A DNA stretch of 45,113 nucleotides from Clostridiales bacterium (GTDB lineage Bacteria > Bacillota > Clostridia > Oscillospirales > Oscillospiraceae), in the NCBI GenBank assembly GCA_021201475.1, contig JAJQEV010000031.1:1-45113 (forward strand). Direction: 5' to 3'. A program made the position numbers and the translations under genes. Within the stretch, counting starts at the first letter, position 1. Every line of letters starts with the position of its first letter. Of the stretch, positions 8,422 to 16,822 are shown one piece after another. The notes under the pieces were generated by a model. The model saw nothing but the letters and a program-made list of their open reading frames with translations, was not told where the DNA came from and did no database searches.

Positions 8422-9480
8422 ATGCGGATGAAACGACTGTTATGCGCCCTTTTGTCTCTGCTCCTGCTGACGGGCTGCGCCTACTCCACCGGCGGGACAG
8501 ACGCGGCGGAGGCCGACCCGGAGGCGGCGGAGTCCTCCACGGAGTACCTGGAGGCCATGGACACCTATATGACCCTGACCGCCTACGGCAGCAGCCGGGA
8601 GGCAGCGCTGGAGGACGCCTGCGCGGAGATTCAGCGGCTGGAGGCCCTCCTCAGCACCGGCAGCGACAGCAGCGAGGTCTACGCCCTGAACCAGACCGGC
8701 TCCGGCGTCCTCTCGGACGATACGGCGGCGTTGCTGGAGTATGCTCTGAACCTGTACGACAGCACCGGCGGGGCCTTTGACATCACCGTCTACCCCCTGA
8801 TGGAGCTGTGGGGCTTCACCACCCAGGACTACCAGGTGCCCACAGCGGAAACCCTGGCGGAAACCCTGGCCCTGGTGGGCTCCGACCGGCTGACCTATGA
8901 CAGCGAAACCCAGACCCTGACCCTGGGGGAGGGCCAGGCCATTGACTTCGGCGGCATCGCCAAGGGCTACACCTCCCAGCGGATCATGGAGCTGTTCCTG
9001 GAGGCGGGGGTCACCTCCGCCATGGTCTCTCTGGGGGGCAACATCCACTGCCTGGGCACCAAGCCTGACGGCTCCCTGTGGCGCATCGGCATTCAGGACC
9101 CGGCGGGGGACGAGGGGGACATTGCGGCCATCGTCAGCGTGGCCGACCAGGCGGTCATCACCTCCGGCGGCTACCAGCGCTACTTTGAGGACGAGGACAC
9201 CGGCGAGACCTATCACCACATCATCGACCCCGCCACCGGCTGCCCCGCCAAAAGCGGCCTGTCCTCCGTCTCCATCGTCACCGGAGACGGGGCGCTGGGG
9301 GACGGCCTCTCCACTGCCCTGTACATCATGGGGCTGGAGGAGGCCACCGCCTACTGGCAGGCCCACAGCACCCTGTTCCAGGCCGTTTTCATTGACGACG
9401 AGGGGGCCATTTACGTCACCGAGGGCATCGCGGACGTGGTGACGGCGGACGCGGGGTTCACCGTGCTGACGGCGGAGTGA
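8422..9480 (+). CDS. apbE: FAD:protein FMN transferase ApbE (lipoprotein)
   Basis: ApbE moves FMN from FAD onto Thr or Ser of Rnf, Nqr and FMN_bind-type proteins outside the membrane. The 352-residue precursor has a lipoprotein signal with lipobox LLTGC (Cys19). Family motifs follow: YMTLTAYG, DITVYPLMELWGF, DFGGIAKGYTSQ, MVSLGGNIHCLG and the C-terminal HHIIDPATGCPAKSG and GLSTALYIMG. The ATG at 8422 is preceded by GGGGAGGA. It ends the NusG_II-Gx-apbE operon. Its obvious local substrates are the D and G parts of the fused Rnf subunit. Confidence 0.95.
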   Translation: MRMKRLLCALLSLLLLTGCAYSTGGTDAAEADPEAAESSTEYLEAMDTYMTLTAYGSSREAALEDACAEIQRLEALLSTGSDSSEVYALNQTGSGVLSDDTAALLEYALNLYDSTGGAFDITVYPLMELWGFTTQDYQVPTAETLAETLALVGSDRLTYDSETQTLTLGEGQAIDFGGIAKGYTSQRIMELFLEAGVTSAMVSLGGNIHCLGTKPDGSLWRIGIQDPAGDEGDIAAIVSVADQAVITSGGYQRYFEDEDTGETYHHIIDPATGCPAKSGLSSVSIVTGDGALGDGLSTALYIMGLEEATAYWQAHSTLFQAVFIDDEGAIYVTEGIADVVTADAGFTVLTAE

Positions 9481-9494
9481 GGGGGGCATATCAT

Positions 9495-9515
9495 AGCCCC
9501 AATAGGGCTGTTTTT
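9495..9515 (+). terminator. Probable terminator after apbE
   Basis: A short AGCCC/GGGCT stem with a small loop is followed by GTTTTT. The stem is only five base pairs, so the call is moderate. Confidence 0.5.
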
Positions 9516-9720: not shown

Positions 9721-10951
9721 ATGACTGAACTGATCGATCGCCCTGAGTATTTAGAGCAACTCATTCAAAATAAAGACGCGGATCTGGTGAAAATCGTCAC
9801 GGGCATCCGCCGGTGCGGGAAATCGTCTCTGCTCGACTTGTTTCACCAATATCTCTCTGAGAACGGTGTGGCGGAGGCCAACATCATTCATATAAATCTG
9901 GAGTCGTTGCGGTATCGGGAGCTTTCCAATTATCTTACCTTTTACGATTACGTCAGTAAACGCATCCCGACGGGAGAAAAGACCTACCTGATCTTTGATG
10001 AGCTTCAGGCCGTAGCGCATTGGGAGAAGGCGATCGAGTCCTTCCGCCTCGACTTTGATGTAGACATTTATATCACCGGTTTGAATGCCTATTTGCTTTC
10101 CACAGAGTTTTCCACGCTGCTTTCTGGCAGGTATGTGGAGATTCGTATGTTGCCGTTGTCGTTTAAAGAATTTCTGACCTTTTACGAGTTTGAGCCGTCC
10201 GTTGCCGTGGAAGAAAAATTCCAGCGCTATCTTCAATTCGGCGGTATGCCGATCCTGAGGGAATACAGGTTCAACGAAGTGAGAAGCAACCAGGCCCTGG
10301 AGGGGATATACTCCACTGTTGTTTTGCGCGACATTTTTACAGCGCAACAGACAGGTCGACCAGGCCACGCTTCAGAAAATCATGCTGTTCCTCTGCTCCA
10401 ACATTGGCAGCATTACGTCCCCGAACAGCATCGGCAACGTACTGTCCCAGGAAGGGGATATTCAAACCGGGAAGGCTAAAAATGTCGCCGGTAAAACGGT
10501 AGATAAATATATCACGATGCTGCGCAATGCCTTCATCATCTATTCGGTCAGCCGATATGATGTCAAGGGCGGGCAACTGCTGAAAACGCTGGGCAAAAAC
10601 TACATCATCGATATGGGCTTCCGCAATACGATGCTGGGGTATCGTGATGCAGACCGGGGGCATATTATTGAGAACATCGTGTTCCTGGAACTGATGCGCC
10701 GCAACTACCGCGTCTATATCGGCAAAGTAGGAGAAACAGAGGTCGACTTTGTGGCGGATAAGCCGAACGAGAAGTTGTATATCCAGGTAACAGAAAGTAT
10801 GCAGTCGCCGGAAACCCGGGAACGTGAGTTAAGGCCGCTGCGCATGATACCGGACAACTATGAAAAAATCGTATTGTCGATGGACAGGAGCTATATCAAT
10901 TCCTACGACGGCATCAAGTCCCTGTACCTGATCGATTGGCTGCTGTTCTAA
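9721..10951 (+). pseudogene. AAA ATPase with DUF4143 domain, frameshifted
   Basis: Two overlapping frames together encode one ATPase of about 409 residues of the AAA_14/DUF4143 type, a family common in gut bacteria with no firm function. The first frame (9721-10479) has Walker A (GIRRCGKSS, 28-36) and Walker B (YLIFDELQ). The second (to 10951) carries DUF4143 with the nuclease-like GKVGETEVDFVAD motif. Continuity breaks at a run of five T at 10334-10338; one T fewer restores VLRDI-LQRNRQVDQATL. The break may be a true mutation, slippage or a sequencing error. The start has a CAGGAGGTG site. Base composition looks lower in GC than the neighbours, which suggests transfer. Confidence 0.85.
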
Positions 10952-10955
10952 ACTA

Positions 10956-11033
10956 CAGGGCTTCGTTCTCAGCATCGAGAAAGCTCAGCCGCTCGGTTCC
11001 AGTGAAGATGACAAATCGGAACCAGCGGCCCTG
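10956..11033. other. Strong hairpin between the AAA gene and the ATPase unit
   Basis: CCGCTCGGTTCC (10989-11000) pairs with GGAACCAGCGG (11018-11028), and an outer CAGGGC/GCCCTG pair (956-961 and 1028-1033 of the 10-11 kb stretch) encloses it. No T run follows directly, so it is a weak terminator candidate. Confidence 0.45.
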
Positions 11034-11069
11034 TTCTATCGGTCAGCAACGCAAACTCTTTGTTTACGT

Positions 11070-11168
11070 CGTAAGCGTCAAACCAGATAGCGGGCAGCAC
11101 TATATGAGATAATCATAGTAACGGAACGTGCGGCAACGTTTCGTTACTACTACTTACATAGGGGATGA
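11070..11168 (+). repeat. Left ~100-bp inverted repeat flanking the P-type ATPase
   Basis: This 99-bp arm is about 85% identical to the reverse complement of 14062-14163, with one 3-base indel. The outer end begins CGTAAGCGTCAAACCA and the inner end is GGGGATGA. The core at 11116-11149 is a near-perfect palindrome (TAGTAACGGAACG against CGTTTCGTTACTA). Confidence 0.85.
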
Positions 11169-11308
11169 CTTTCCTTCTAAATCTCAGGCTACTCTTTGGA
11201 AGCTCATATTACAGTCAATATACAAATGCCAGCCTTCTACTGTCCCTCGCGGCAATAGCACGTATATTTCATAAAAACTTTAAATCTTATCCGTTGTTTC
11301 TGTCTGGA

Positions 11309-11317
11309 TGGTATGAT
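11309..11317 (+). promoter_or_regulatory. Extended -10 promoter of the P-type ATPase gene
   Basis: TGG followed by TATGAT (11312-11317) forms an extended -10 element inside the left repeat unit, about 70 bases before the chosen start codon. No good -35 box is seen. Confidence 0.45.
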
Positions 11318-11389
11318 AAAGTAATAACGTATGCAATGTATGCTGTCGCAGTGCAGTGGTGTGGCAACATCGAATCAGAAATCCGGGAG

Positions 11390-13906
11390 ATGGAACTAGT
11401 GCCTGAGGAAAACGAAACCAGAACTCATCCAGTCAAAAGTGCTTCTCATAGAAATGAGCAGCCCGCAGAAGCAGAGCCTGCTCCCGCCCGAAAGATTCCT
11501 GTGGTCTGTGCAGCCCCTGAACAGGGCCTGACCACCGAACAGGCAACGGAGCGGATGGAAGGCGGCTGCCAGAATGTAGAAATCGAGTCCACCTCCAAAT
11601 CATTGGGAGACATCATTCGTTCCAACGTCTGTACCTACTTTAACCTGATCTTTTTTGTTCTGGCTATTGCGGTGTGCGCCGTTGGCGCATGGAACGAACT
11701 GACCTTCCTCGTCGTAGTGATTGCCAACATCTGCATTGGCATTGGTCAGGAGTGGAGGAGCAAAAAGAAACTGGACAGTTTGAGCCTTTTGACCAACCCG
11801 AAGGCCAACGTAGTACGGGATGGTCAGGTGTGCACGATTTCCGCTTATGATACAGTCCGGGATGATATTGCCATTTTCCGCGCAGGAGACCAAATCTATG
11901 CGGATGCCAGGATTGTGGGTGGACAGTGTCTTGTCAACGAGTCCCTGTTGACAGGCGAAGCAGATGAGATAAAGAAAGGGCCAGGGGACGATTTGCTCTC
12001 CGGCTCCTACCTGGTCTCCGGAGAATGCCATGCTCAGCTGACCGCTGTGGGCCGCGATTCCTATATGTCCAAGCTGACCCTTCAGGCAAAGCAGACCCGG
12101 CAGCCGCCCCGGTCGGAGATGATGCGATCCCTGAACCGTCTGGTGCTGTCCATTGGCATTGTCATTATCCCTCTAGGCATTGCAATGGCTTACAAGGAAA
12201 TTGCAGTATTGCACAACACGATTCGGGATGGCGTGGTATCCACTGTAGCCAGCCTTGTTGGTATGATTCCGGAGGGGCTGTATCTGTTAACCTCCCTGGC
12301 ATTGATGACCGGCGTGCTGCGTCTGGCGCAGCGCAAGACGCTGGTTCATGAGATGGGCTGCATTGAGACTTTAGCCCGGGTGGACACGCTCTGCGTAGAC
12401 AAAACGGGAACTATTACCGAACCGAAGATGGTGGTAGAGGATTTGGTAGCGGTAAATGACGCTCCCCTCACCCTGGATAACCTGCGCGGGATTTTGGCAG
12501 ACTATGTTTTCGCTATGCAGAACGATAACGAGACCATGGCGGCGCTTAAGCGTTATTTTGATGGCCAGCACTCCCGTCGTGTTGTCCTTCAGGTGCTGCC
12601 CTTTACCTCCGCCCGGAAGTATGGCGGTGTGTCTTTCGCCGGGGAAGACGCTTTCCTGCTGGGCGCACCGGAGAATCTGTTAGGTAATCAGTACCAGCAG
12701 TATAGTGAGGAGATTGAAAAATACTCCCGTTTAGGCTGCCGGGTACTGTTGATGGCCCACTACGGCGGCAAGCTGGACGATGCTGCCTTGACAGAGAACG
12801 TTGAAGCGCTGGCACTGGTGCTGCTGACCAACAAGATTCGGGATAATGCCCCGGAGACCTTCCGGTACTTCCGGGAACAGGGCGTGGCGGTCAAGGTGAT
12901 TTCCGGCGACAGCCCGGTCACAGTCTCAGAAGTAGCCCTTCGCGCAGAAATCCCCAATGCGGATCAATATGTGGACGCGCGCACGCTGCGCACCGATGAG
13001 GATTTGGCCCAGGCGGCTGAGCGTTACACTGTCTTTGGCCGGGTGACACCGGAACAGAAGCGCGCCCTGGTGCGGGCCATGCATCAGGCGGGCCATACTG
13101 TTGCCATGACGGGCGACGGCGTAAACGATGTGCTGGCATTGAAGGAGGCGGACTGTTCAGTGGCCATGGCTTCCGGCAGTCAGGTTGCCTGCCAGGTCAG
13201 CCATATCGTCCTGTTGGACTCCGATTTTTCCGCCATGCCCTCTGTGGTTGCAGAAGGTCGTCGGGTCATCAACAACATCGAACGCTCCGCCAGCCTGTAC
13301 CTGGTCAAGAATATCTTTTCCCTGTGCCTGGCGGCTATCTCGCTGATTTTTACGTTTACGTATCCCTTCTCCGCCTCCCAGATGAGTCTGGTCAGCGCCA
13401 TCACCATCGGTTTGCCCTCCTTCGTCATGGCACTGGAGCCAAACAAAAACCGCATCCAGGGTCGTTTTATGACCAACGTTATCTATCGAGCGCTGCCATC
13501 TGCCATCAGCGACCTGGTGCTAAGCATCGGCGTTGTGCTGTTTTATATCGTCTTTGACCTGACCACAGACGAGTTGAGTGCCATCTGCACACTGGTGGTA
13601 GCGGTAGTGGGCCTGCTAATGGTACACCGGACGTGCAGACCATACAATGCCCTGCGCAAGCTGTTGATGGCGACCTGTGTGGTGGCTTTTGCTGTCTGCG
13701 TGGTTTTCCTTCAGCCCATTTTCTCTCTGGATTTGGCTGCCATGAGCCACGGCGCCTGGCTGGTGCTGGTGGTGTTTGTGCTGTTGGCCTTCGAGGTGTC
13801 CCTCTCCGCCAATATTATGGTGGACAGCATTCGCAGCATGGTGCTTTGGATTTGCAATAAGCTGAAGAGTCTGGTTCAGGCAATCCTGCACCCGGAAAGC
13901 ACATAG
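11390..13906 (+). CDS. CtpE-like cation-translocating P-type ATPase
   Basis: This ion pump belongs to the HAD-type P-ATPases and most resembles the CtpE/E1-E2 branch linked to Ca2+ handling in other bacteria; the ion here is not proven. From 11390 it has 838 residues. Features are the actuator motif LLTGEADE, the membrane PEGL motif (MIPEGLYLLTS), the phosphorylation site DKTGT with Asp337, the hinge MTGDGVNDVLALKEAD, and about ten helices with the last six C-terminal. Conserved sequence begins near GLTTEQATERM. The upstream ATG at 11165 lies inside the inverted repeat and is rejected; 11336 is an alternative. It is enclosed by the 100-bp inverted repeats. Confidence 0.9.
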   Translation: MELVPEENETRTHPVKSASHRNEQPAEAEPAPARKIPVVCAAPEQGLTTEQATERMEGGCQNVEIESTSKSLGDIIRSNVCTYFNLIFFVLAIAVCAVGAWNELTFLVVVIANICIGIGQEWRSKKKLDSLSLLTNPKANVVRDGQVCTISAYDTVRDDIAIFRAGDQIYADARIVGGQCLVNESLLTGEADEIKKGPGDDLLSGSYLVSGECHAQLTAVGRDSYMSKLTLQAKQTRQPPRSEMMRSLNRLVLSIGIVIIPLGIAMAYKEIAVLHNTIRDGVVSTVASLVGMIPEGLYLLTSLALMTGVLRLAQRKTLVHEMGCIETLARVDTLCVDKTGTITEPKMVVEDLVAVNDAPLTLDNLRGILADYVFAMQNDNETMAALKRYFDGQHSRRVVLQVLPFTSARKYGGVSFAGEDAFLLGAPENLLGNQYQQYSEEIEKYSRLGCRVLLMAHYGGKLDDAALTENVEALALVLLTNKIRDNAPETFRYFREQGVAVKVISGDSPVTVSEVALRAEIPNADQYVDARTLRTDEDLAQAAERYTVFGRVTPEQKRALVRAMHQAGHTVAMTGDGVNDVLALKEADCSVAMASGSQVACQVSHIVLLDSDFSAMPSVVAEGRRVINNIERSASLYLVKNIFSLCLAAISLIFTFTYPFSASQMSLVSAITIGLPSFVMALEPNKNRIQGRFMTNVIYRALPSAISDLVLSIGVVLFYIVFDLTTDELSAICTLVVAVVGLLMVHRTCRPYNALRKLLMATCVVAFAVCVVFLQPIFSLDLAAMSHGAWLVLVVFVLLAFEVSLSANIMVDSIRSMVLWICNKLKSLVQAILHPEST

Positions 13907-14061
13907 CAGGCACAGTGAGCAAAGCGGGAGATGTGAACCGTGCTGTCCGCATGGATATAGTCTCCGCCTTATCACATATAGACAGCGTGACAAATGGCAG
14001 CCGTTCATTCCTGTAGCCTTGCCTGGTGTTTCGATGTGTTTGCATTTGATGTCATTGAGCC

Positions 14062-14163
14062 TCATCCCCAATGTAAGTGGTAGTAACGGAACGCTGCAAC
14101 GCGTTCCGTTACTATTACCATTATCTCATACGAGGCTACCCGCTGTTTGGTTTGACGCTTACG
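14062..14163 (-). repeat. Right ~100-bp inverted repeat flanking the P-type ATPase
   Basis: This is the inverted mate of 11070-11168. Its core at 14081-14114 is a perfect 13-bp palindrome (TAGTAACGGAACG with CGTTCCGTTACTA, 8-base spacer). The similarity ends sharply at both edges. The 155 bases between the ATPase stop and this arm contain no gene. Confidence 0.85.
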
Positions 14164-14269
14164 TTTCTATTGGTATCCGTCCTGCCTTTGCTGCCGTATA
14201 ACATTTGAGCAGCAGGCAAATAACCGCCGCCTTCGCCGGCTGCCCATAAAAGCGGCCTATCTCGTTCCC

Positions 14270-14303
14270 AGGGGAAACAAATCGTTTACGCTTTGTTTCC
14301 CCT
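14270..14303. other. 12-bp perfect inverted repeat before the VanZ gene
   Basis: AGGGGAAACAAA (14270-14281) pairs with TTTGTTTCCCCT (14292-14303) across a 10-base loop. It sits 18 bases upstream of the -35 box of the VanZ-family gene. It could be an operator or a weak terminator. Confidence 0.45.
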
Positions 14304-14320
14304 TTGTTCCCGCATTGTTC

Positions 14321-14350
14321 TTGCTTTTTCCGGCGAGGATGGAGTATAAT
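14321..14350 (+). promoter_or_regulatory. Promoter of the VanZ-family gene
   Basis: TTGCTT (14321-14326) and a perfect TATAAT (14345-14350) are separated by 18 bases, 30 bases before the ATG. Confidence 0.75.
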
Positions 14351-14380
14351 GGCCCAAACACCCCATTCAGGAGAGTTACC

Positions 14381-14875
14381 ATGATGAAACAAACCGTCTT
14401 CCGCGTGATACATATAGTGTTCCGCGTCCTCTTCACCCTCTTTGCCCTGTGGGCCATCCTCTTTATCTTCCAAAACAGCCTGGAATCGGGCGCCCTGTCC
14501 TCCAGCCGCAGCGCCGAGTTCACCGCCATGCTGAACGCCGTACTGGGGAAGCTGGGCGTTTCCGCCCTGTCTGAGGCGGTGGTGCGGAAGCTGGCCCACT
14601 ATGCGGAGTTCGCCCTCCTGGGCTTCCTGCTGACCCTGTGCGTTCGGGTCTACACCCCACGCTATGTGCGTTACTGCTGCTGGCCGCTGCTGATTGGCCT
14701 GTGCGTGGCCAACCTGGATGAGACGATTCAGCTCTATGTGGATGGGCGCAGCAGCAGCGTCATTGACGTGTGGATCGATTTCAGCGGGGTCTGCGGCGGG
14801 CTGTTGGCCGGATTCCTGGTGTGCATCCTGCTGAGCCTGATTCTGTCCAGCCTTGGCCTCAAACACAAACGGTAA
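14381..14875 (+). CDS. VanZ family membrane protein
   Basis: This 164-residue membrane protein matches VanZ-like proteins, named after a teicoplanin-resistance accessory protein; most members have no known function. Signatures are VRKLAHYAEFALLGF, the ANLDETIQLYVDGRSSSVIDVWID stretch (here split as DETIQ, DGR and D-x3-D positions) and a glycine-rich last helix. About four membrane helices are predicted. The ATG at 14381 has AGGAGAG 5 bases upstream and lies 31 bases after a TATAAT box. It is monocistronic, followed by a terminator. Confidence 0.85.
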   Translation: MMKQTVFRVIHIVFRVLFTLFALWAILFIFQNSLESGALSSSRSAEFTAMLNAVLGKLGVSALSEAVVRKLAHYAEFALLGFLLTLCVRVYTPRYVRYCCWPLLIGLCVANLDETIQLYVDGRSSSVIDVWIDFSGVCGGLLAGFLVCILLSLILSSLGLKHKR

Positions 14876-16599: not shown

Positions 16600-16822
16600 C
16601 ATTGGATGCTGCCGGTTCCCGCTCTGTCCTTTTGCCTGAGAGATTTGCAGGGGCGTCCGCCCCGCATTGCACCTTCGGCATCCGCGTCTTGCACGGACTT
16701 CTCCAGAGTGCCATCCGCTTACAGTCCCGGCCTCCCCATTGAGGCCCCTGAGAGTGTTACTCCTTCGGCAGGCGGCGGGGCAACGGTATGCCGCCCTGTT
16801 TCCTGCAAGCATCTGCTGGCTA
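16600..16822 (-). promoter_or_regulatory. Tandem glycine riboswitch
   Basis: Read on the minus strand, two aptamers follow each other. The first has TGCCGAAGGAGTAACACTCT followed by an AGGGGCC/GGCC arm and GGGACTGTAAGCGGA. The linker contains CACTCTGGAGAA. The second has TGCCGAAGGTGCAA, then CTCTCAGGCAAAAGGACAGA. These are the hallmark conserved blocks of the glycine riboswitch (gcvT class), a class that often controls AGCS symporters. Exact outer limits are approximate. Confidence 0.93.

Follow-up and report, generated by a model that had tools for sequence, protein, structure and literature searches.

Is a P-type ATPase gene enclosed by two inverted repeats of about 100 bp a mobile unit of its own, or does it lie between repeats that reached the locus separately? 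The question is raised by positions 11070-14163 (the block) of a 45,113-nt stretch of a Clostridiales bacterium genome (assembly GCA_021201475.1, contig JAJQEV010000031.1; the whole stretch is called the window below), where the repeats, or arms, stand on either side of a gene for a CtpE-like cation pump. The original prediction, made from the sequence of the window, proposed a cargo unit moved by a transposase encoded elsewhere or a gene-sized element not yet described. Judged by their sequence, the arms are decayed left ends of a known family of insertion sequences (IS), IS66, and thus the seemingly new gene-sized element resolves into known mobile-element debris. We put at about 0.62 the probability that two separate decayed IS66 left ends flank an acquired or relocated ordinary chromosomal gene of a CtpE-like pump. 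The features of the block are as follows.

11070..11168, plus strand: arm 1, fragment of the left end of an IS66-family element, with its terminus (GTAAGCG) at 11071 and oriented towards the ATPase gene
11116..11153, plus strand: hairpin within arm 1, conserved among IS66 left ends
11399..13906, plus strand: CtpE-like P-type (E1-E2) ATPase gene; GTG at 11399 is the predicted start, the reading frame being open from 11165
13994..14061, minus strand: relic of an IS66 tnpA start that runs on from arm 2, by homology to the IS66 copy of genome G020
14062..14163, minus strand: arm 2, fragment of the left end of another IS66-family copy in inverted orientation, its terminus lying at 14162
14081..14114, minus strand: hairpin within arm 2

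The inverted pair is present where it had been predicted. Aligned with the reverse complement of 14062-14163, the segment 11070-11168 shows 82% identity in 102 columns with one 3-nt gap (E 5e-23), slightly below the 85% over 98 bases claimed originally, and an ungapped search of the window yields two matches between the arms, one of 54 nt (87%) and one of 51 nt (80%). The arms had also been described as stopping sharply, which does not hold for the right one: IS66 homology runs on from 14062 to 13994, and the whole segment 13994-14163 is 86% identical to the beginning of the G020 IS66 copy (positions 1-167). The tnpA start at 13994-14061 is a dead remnant, so that the window retains approximately 99 bp and 170 bp of IS66 left end.

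The comparison within the genus covered 32 genomes, including that of the window (G000), and the alignment of left ends set arm 1 beside 14 others, including arm 2. Arm 1 is 84% identical to the left end that precedes tnpA/tnpB in G020. In particular, contig C148 of that genome (L017) contains 99 bp resembling the arms, followed by a tnpA-like frame (HTH_Tnp_1, E 1.5e-4, slightly short of its cut-off) and by TnpB_IS66 (PF05717, E 2e-41). In other genera of the family, similar left ends are found on an IS66 copy of G184 with tnpA, tnpB and a PF03050 tnpC (E 7e-95), and on an IS66 copy of G237 with both termini present. As the same sequence precedes tnpA/tnpB in a sister species, and arm 2 itself continues into tnpA, we assign both arms to IS66 left ends. 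No complete IS66 element was found in the window, neither the transposase (DDE_Tnp_IS66) nor a right end having been detected. A scan of the window revealed no IS66 right end inside the block beyond the 14-bp terminus common to the arms and 9-11-mers at chance level.

Between the terminus and tnpA, most members of an alignment of nine IS66 left ends, drawn from several genera, retain a hairpin of about 14 bp. Of its 17 predicted pairs, 4 show changes on both sides, and some pairs are broken; the hairpin may control tnpA expression or readthrough. Two further roles of the block were considered and rejected. A scan of the window gave no gathering-level match to an RNA family in the block, with one sub-threshold match (E 0.14), and a consensus scan of 10940-14400 gave no arm 1 promoter on the strand that would drive the ATPase gene.

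IS66 left ends similar to arm 1 occur at 12 places in six of the 32 genomes: four at contig ends, one before tnpA/tnpB, and seven as fragments, both arms among the latter. Seven of these 12 places, recognised by their position and the length of the contig, were recovered when the arm pattern was sought in the genome_contigs collection (seven stretches with one match each, all from metagenome-assembled genomes), and viral_contigs gave no matches. The contig-end copies (two in G020, one each in G019 and G021) look like recent insertions, as a recent multi-copy element is expected to break an assembly. A pattern search for right ends yielded eight places, four of them near contig starts in the same genomes as the contig-end left ends and the other four without a left partner. 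In each of the four recent insertions that could be paired, the 8 bp after the right end repeat perfectly the 8 bp before its left partner (CGGATACG, GCATCTGG, GGGAGTTG and ATCTGGAG, respectively), which fixes the termini GTAAGCG...CGCTTAC and an 8-bp target duplication. A perfect 8-bp pair also occurs at the G237 copy, but not at that of G184. Consistent with this length, the excerpt of PMC3281130 gives '8' for two IS66 members in a column that we take to be direct repeats. More IS66-type ends, starting with GTAAGCGTCAAACC but with a different inner sequence, are scattered across the genus (L106; L017 near 1900).

The genome of the window has four left-end and three right-end places, with solo right ends present. 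It gave no PF03050 match, but this is weak evidence for the lack of a transposase, since G020 and G021, with their recent copies, gave none either and the assembly may hide the element bodies. Flanks of up to 1.5 kb were taken from the fragments in G000 (C78 and C75), G014, G020 (C86) and G011 and from the tnpA/tnpB copy; in a comparison among themselves and with the window, all but one pair are unrelated. The ends thus behave as dispersed repeats beside mostly unrelated DNA, an outcome that the original prediction itself had named as speaking against a mobile unit. The related pair consists of the G014 fragment and arm 1: the former stands behind a homologous DUF4143 gene, in the orientation of arm 1 (84% over 1392 bp, L018:2224-3830), and the two may be a shared old insertion. 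If so, arm 1 belongs with the DUF4143 gene and not with the ATPase.

As a left-end tree has no strong branch (0 of 11 branches starred), the kinship of the arms was judged from identity counts. Arm 1 and arm 2 agree in 81 of 104 columns, arm 1 and the G020 copy in 84 of 105, and arm 2 and the G020 copy in 87 of 104; compared with the contig-end copies, arm 2 agrees in 48-50 of 52-54 columns. By these counts, either arm is at least as close to the copy of another species as to its partner.

The enclosed gene is the only long frame in the block interior (11165-13906), and no transposase is recognised inside the block, both as predicted. The product carries the P-type ATPase domains PF00122 (E 4.5e-39) and PF00702 (HAD, E 2.7e-17), and among solved structures, Listeria lmo0841 and type 2C Ca2+ ATPases match it best. 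The ATG at 11165 falls within arm 1 and is probably not the true start, the GTG at 11399, preceded by GGGAG, being preferred as it matches the starts in relatives better. The motif in the fourth transmembrane segment (TM4), MIPEGL, agrees with the label "CtpE-like": in the excerpt of PMC5615198, the corresponding motif is VPEGL in CtpE and IPEG(A)L in family 2 Ca2+ ATPases.

At E <= 1e-100, the ATPase is found in 18 of the 32 genus genomes, that of the window included and G011 having a fragment; at E <= 1e-250, it occurs in 105 of the 400 family genomes covered. Its neighbours vary, comprising genes for a solute-binding protein (G006, G014), UvrC (G007), FtsH (G021), leucyl-tRNA synthetase (G017), a histidine phosphatase (G013), a radical SAM protein (G018) and others. 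The gene is inverted relative to a shared solute-binding-protein stretch in G006, compared with G014 and G016 (L044, L045, L046). In G007, a gene for a GDT1-type divalent cation/proton antiporter lies directly upstream (L056:5543-6262), which suggests a role of the ATPase in divalent-cation handling; the DNA upstream of the G007 ATPase is common to G009, G012, G021 and G022. No arms were found near the ATPase in the DNA fetched from 16 relatives apart from a chance-level 14-nt match in G014, some of the flanks being short (under 200 bp on one side in G015 and G019), and the same DNA contains no IS66 right end. Plasmid and phage collections were considered as sources of the gene and rejected, with just three weak records in each, covering at most 10% of the query.

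The site of the ATPase gene is bounded as follows.

9721..10951, plus strand: left neighbour, AAA_14/DUF4143 gene, broken here
10951..11069: segment left of arm 1, absent from G006; the 31 remaining genus genomes give matches (E <= 1e-5) to its first 12-21 bp only
14164..14233: segment right of arm 2, absent from G006; unmatched (E <= 1e-5) in the 31 remaining genus genomes
14315..14875, plus strand: right neighbour, VanZ-like gene

The broken AAA ATPase gene noted originally beside the block is confirmed: the AAA_14/DUF4143 gene is in two overlapping frames in the window and open in G006, G010 and G014. The opposite side, with the VanZ and symporter genes, is kept at 86-94% in six relatives (G006, G010, G011, G014, G016 and G020), and the ATPase is absent from this site in all stretches fetched from them. 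On contig C42 of G006, the end of the DUF4143 gene is at 2889 and the VanZ side restarts at 2891 (window positions 10950 and 14234, respectively), the ATPase being on another contig. A relative that joins the two neighbours without the block, which the original prediction had called for, therefore exists, but it lacks 10951-14233 and not 11070-14163, its gap exceeding the arms by about 119 bp (left) and 70 bp (right); an empty site ending exactly at the arms was not found among the relatives. Most likely, to judge from these comparisons, the ATPase arrived at its present site in the lineage of the window; alternatively, G006 itself may have lost DNA, each species being represented by one genome. 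Low GC content had been taken as a further mark of the block. Indeed, its value is 0.533, compared with a mean of 0.607 (sd 0.036) for 3.1-kb segments, but an even lower value (0.488) is found for the gene to the left, and hence low GC fails to mark out the block.

Some features of the right side are of independent interest. A palindrome at 14270-14303 lies upstream of the VanZ gene, its 20-base start being exact in the window, G006 and G010 loci, and the sequence shared by five relatives starts beside it, at 14269-14279. Further on, a glycine riboswitch (16614-16716, minus strand, 62.7 bits) precedes a sodium:alanine symporter gene.

The divergence of the ATPase allele departs from that of rpoB, and a close copy is found at another locus of G020.

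11210..14001, plus strand: stretch shared with the G020 ATPase locus (L043, located elsewhere), 92.8% over 2792 bp

The G020 allele adjoins a LytTR regulator gene. The far end of the same contig, some 22 kb off, is one of the recent IS66 insertions. Identities of the ATPase were compared with those predicted from rpoB in 15 of the 18 ATPase genomes (G009 has no rpoB match, G019 has rpoB fragments, and G011 has an ATPase fragment), with 78 pairs excluding G000 and G020 as the baseline. The window and G020 alleles are too close (94.4%, with 88.4% predicted, z -4.3), and the window allele is too far from that of G006 (83.2%, with 89.4% predicted, z 4.3), as well as from those of G014 (z 3.1) and G016 (z 3.3); the G020 allele repeats the pattern. 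A faster-evolving allele alone is insufficient as an explanation, because the excess similarity between G000 and G020 would be left over, and the pattern points to horizontal sharing or replacement of the allele.

In the reading that we prefer, two IS66-family copies would have inserted separately in opposite orientation, and their bodies would have been lost by deletion, leaving the left ends. The pump gene would have come by recombination into the AT-rich, often rearranged gap between the DUF4143 and VanZ genes. The IS66 copies would not have carried the pump as one unit, and the arms need have no function for the pump. What remains of the predicted cargo unit is that the arms are transposon ends and that the ATPase is probably foreign to its site, while carriage by the arms is unsupported.

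A less probable history, though one that deserves weighing, is a decayed composite transposon, or mobile insertion cassette, in which two IS66 copies with their left ends outward captured and moved the ATPase, with a transposase acting in cis or in trans, and later lost their inner parts and the target duplication. It would explain several observations that weigh against separate remnants. Outward left ends stand on either side of the ATPase, and both copies kept their outer ends and lost the inner ones, as in a composite transposon. Moreover, such clustering is unlikely by chance: for four random copies, the probability of two outward left ends within 3.1 kb is 0.0036 (0.014 in any orientation), and if the left and right ends of the genome (seven places) are taken together, the probability of any two lying within this distance is 0.047. 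The ATPase looks new at its present site, the block being absent from that of G006; the gene is out of step with rpoB in the comparisons with G020 and G006; and the recent insertions in G019, G020 and G021 are of the same family. The kinship data, too, are partly unfavourable to separate insertions. A sister grouping of the arms stays unrejected in a likelihood tree test (approximately unbiased test, p = 0.092, 102 columns), and arm 1 is not the nearest to the G014 copy (77 of 102 columns, compared with 84 of 104 for arm 2, with a 3-nt insertion common to both), which weakens the reading of the G014 fragment and arm 1 as a shared old insertion.

Three tests part a real cassette from two remnants, namely the 8-bp duplication, an exact empty site and the kinship of the arms. 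The octamers adjoining the unit, TTTACGTC and GTTTCTAT, agree in three of eight positions, a score reached by random pairs 35% of the time, so the target duplication is missing; TTTACGTC recurs exactly at 9410, which we take as chance, since this position is outside the block and has nothing nearby beyond a right-end 9-mer. The gap in G006, as described, is wider than the arms on both sides, and in identity counts the arms are no nearer to one another than to the copy from another species. Furthermore, no second copy of the unit, no other arm pair and no other cargo between such ends was found among the 12 left-end places of the 32 genomes, nor was arm-flanked cargo found at the ATPase loci of the 16 relatives, contrary to what had been expected of a cargo unit. 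No transposase was detected in the genome of the window, and G020 carries the same allele without arms in the 9 kb fetched, with just 862 bp downstream before the contig end. On this balance we prefer separate remnants over the decayed composite or cassette. The more specific proposal that a non-autonomous cassette with two left ends moved the pump between sites and species of the genus, using the transposase of active IS66 copies in relatives, appears unlikely; if true, it would provide a case of an ion-pump gene carried between species by IS66 left ends.

Still less probable is the arrival, by homologous recombination, of a longer AT-rich island extending from the DUF4143 gene to arm 2, with the arms as passengers. 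The lowest-GC 3.1-kb segment of the 45 kb starts at 9501, to the left of the block, and the DUF4143 gene is patchy, being present over most of its length in three relatives and over 132 bp only in G020, and located on a contig separate from VanZ in G014 and G010; the IS66 left end behind the DUF4143 gene of G014 would also fit. However, in G006 the DUF4143 gene is already beside VanZ and the block is absent. Finally, the strong hairpin in each arm and the short solo copies might suggest an unrelated dispersed hairpin repeat (similar to repetitive extragenic palindromes, REP, or a miniature element of its own), which we regard as very improbable given the continuity with tnpA/tnpB and the full-length IS66 elements with the same termini.

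The block can be compared with three known systems. CtpE, described in the excerpt of PMC5615198 as a family 23 P-type ATPase responsible for Ca2+ uptake in Mycobacterium smegmatis, resembles the ATPase of the window in the TM4 motif (VPEGL and MIPEGL, respectively), to which the comparison was confined. Composite transposons and mobile insertion cassettes of the MIC231 type, as presented in the excerpts of PMC1196294 and PMC3281130, have in common with the block a passenger between outward IS ends and the lack of a transposase, while for the window neither a target duplication nor a precise empty site or second copy was found, and its arms are unequal (the flanking IS ends are 82% identical, their sister grouping not being rejected). 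The IS66-family elements, with tnpA, tnpB and tnpC, differ from the window in that it has left-end pieces only, no complete element having been found in its genome, and share with the copies of its relatives the termini GTAAGCG...CGCTTAC, the left end followed by tnpA/tnpB, and the 8-bp duplications of recent insertions.

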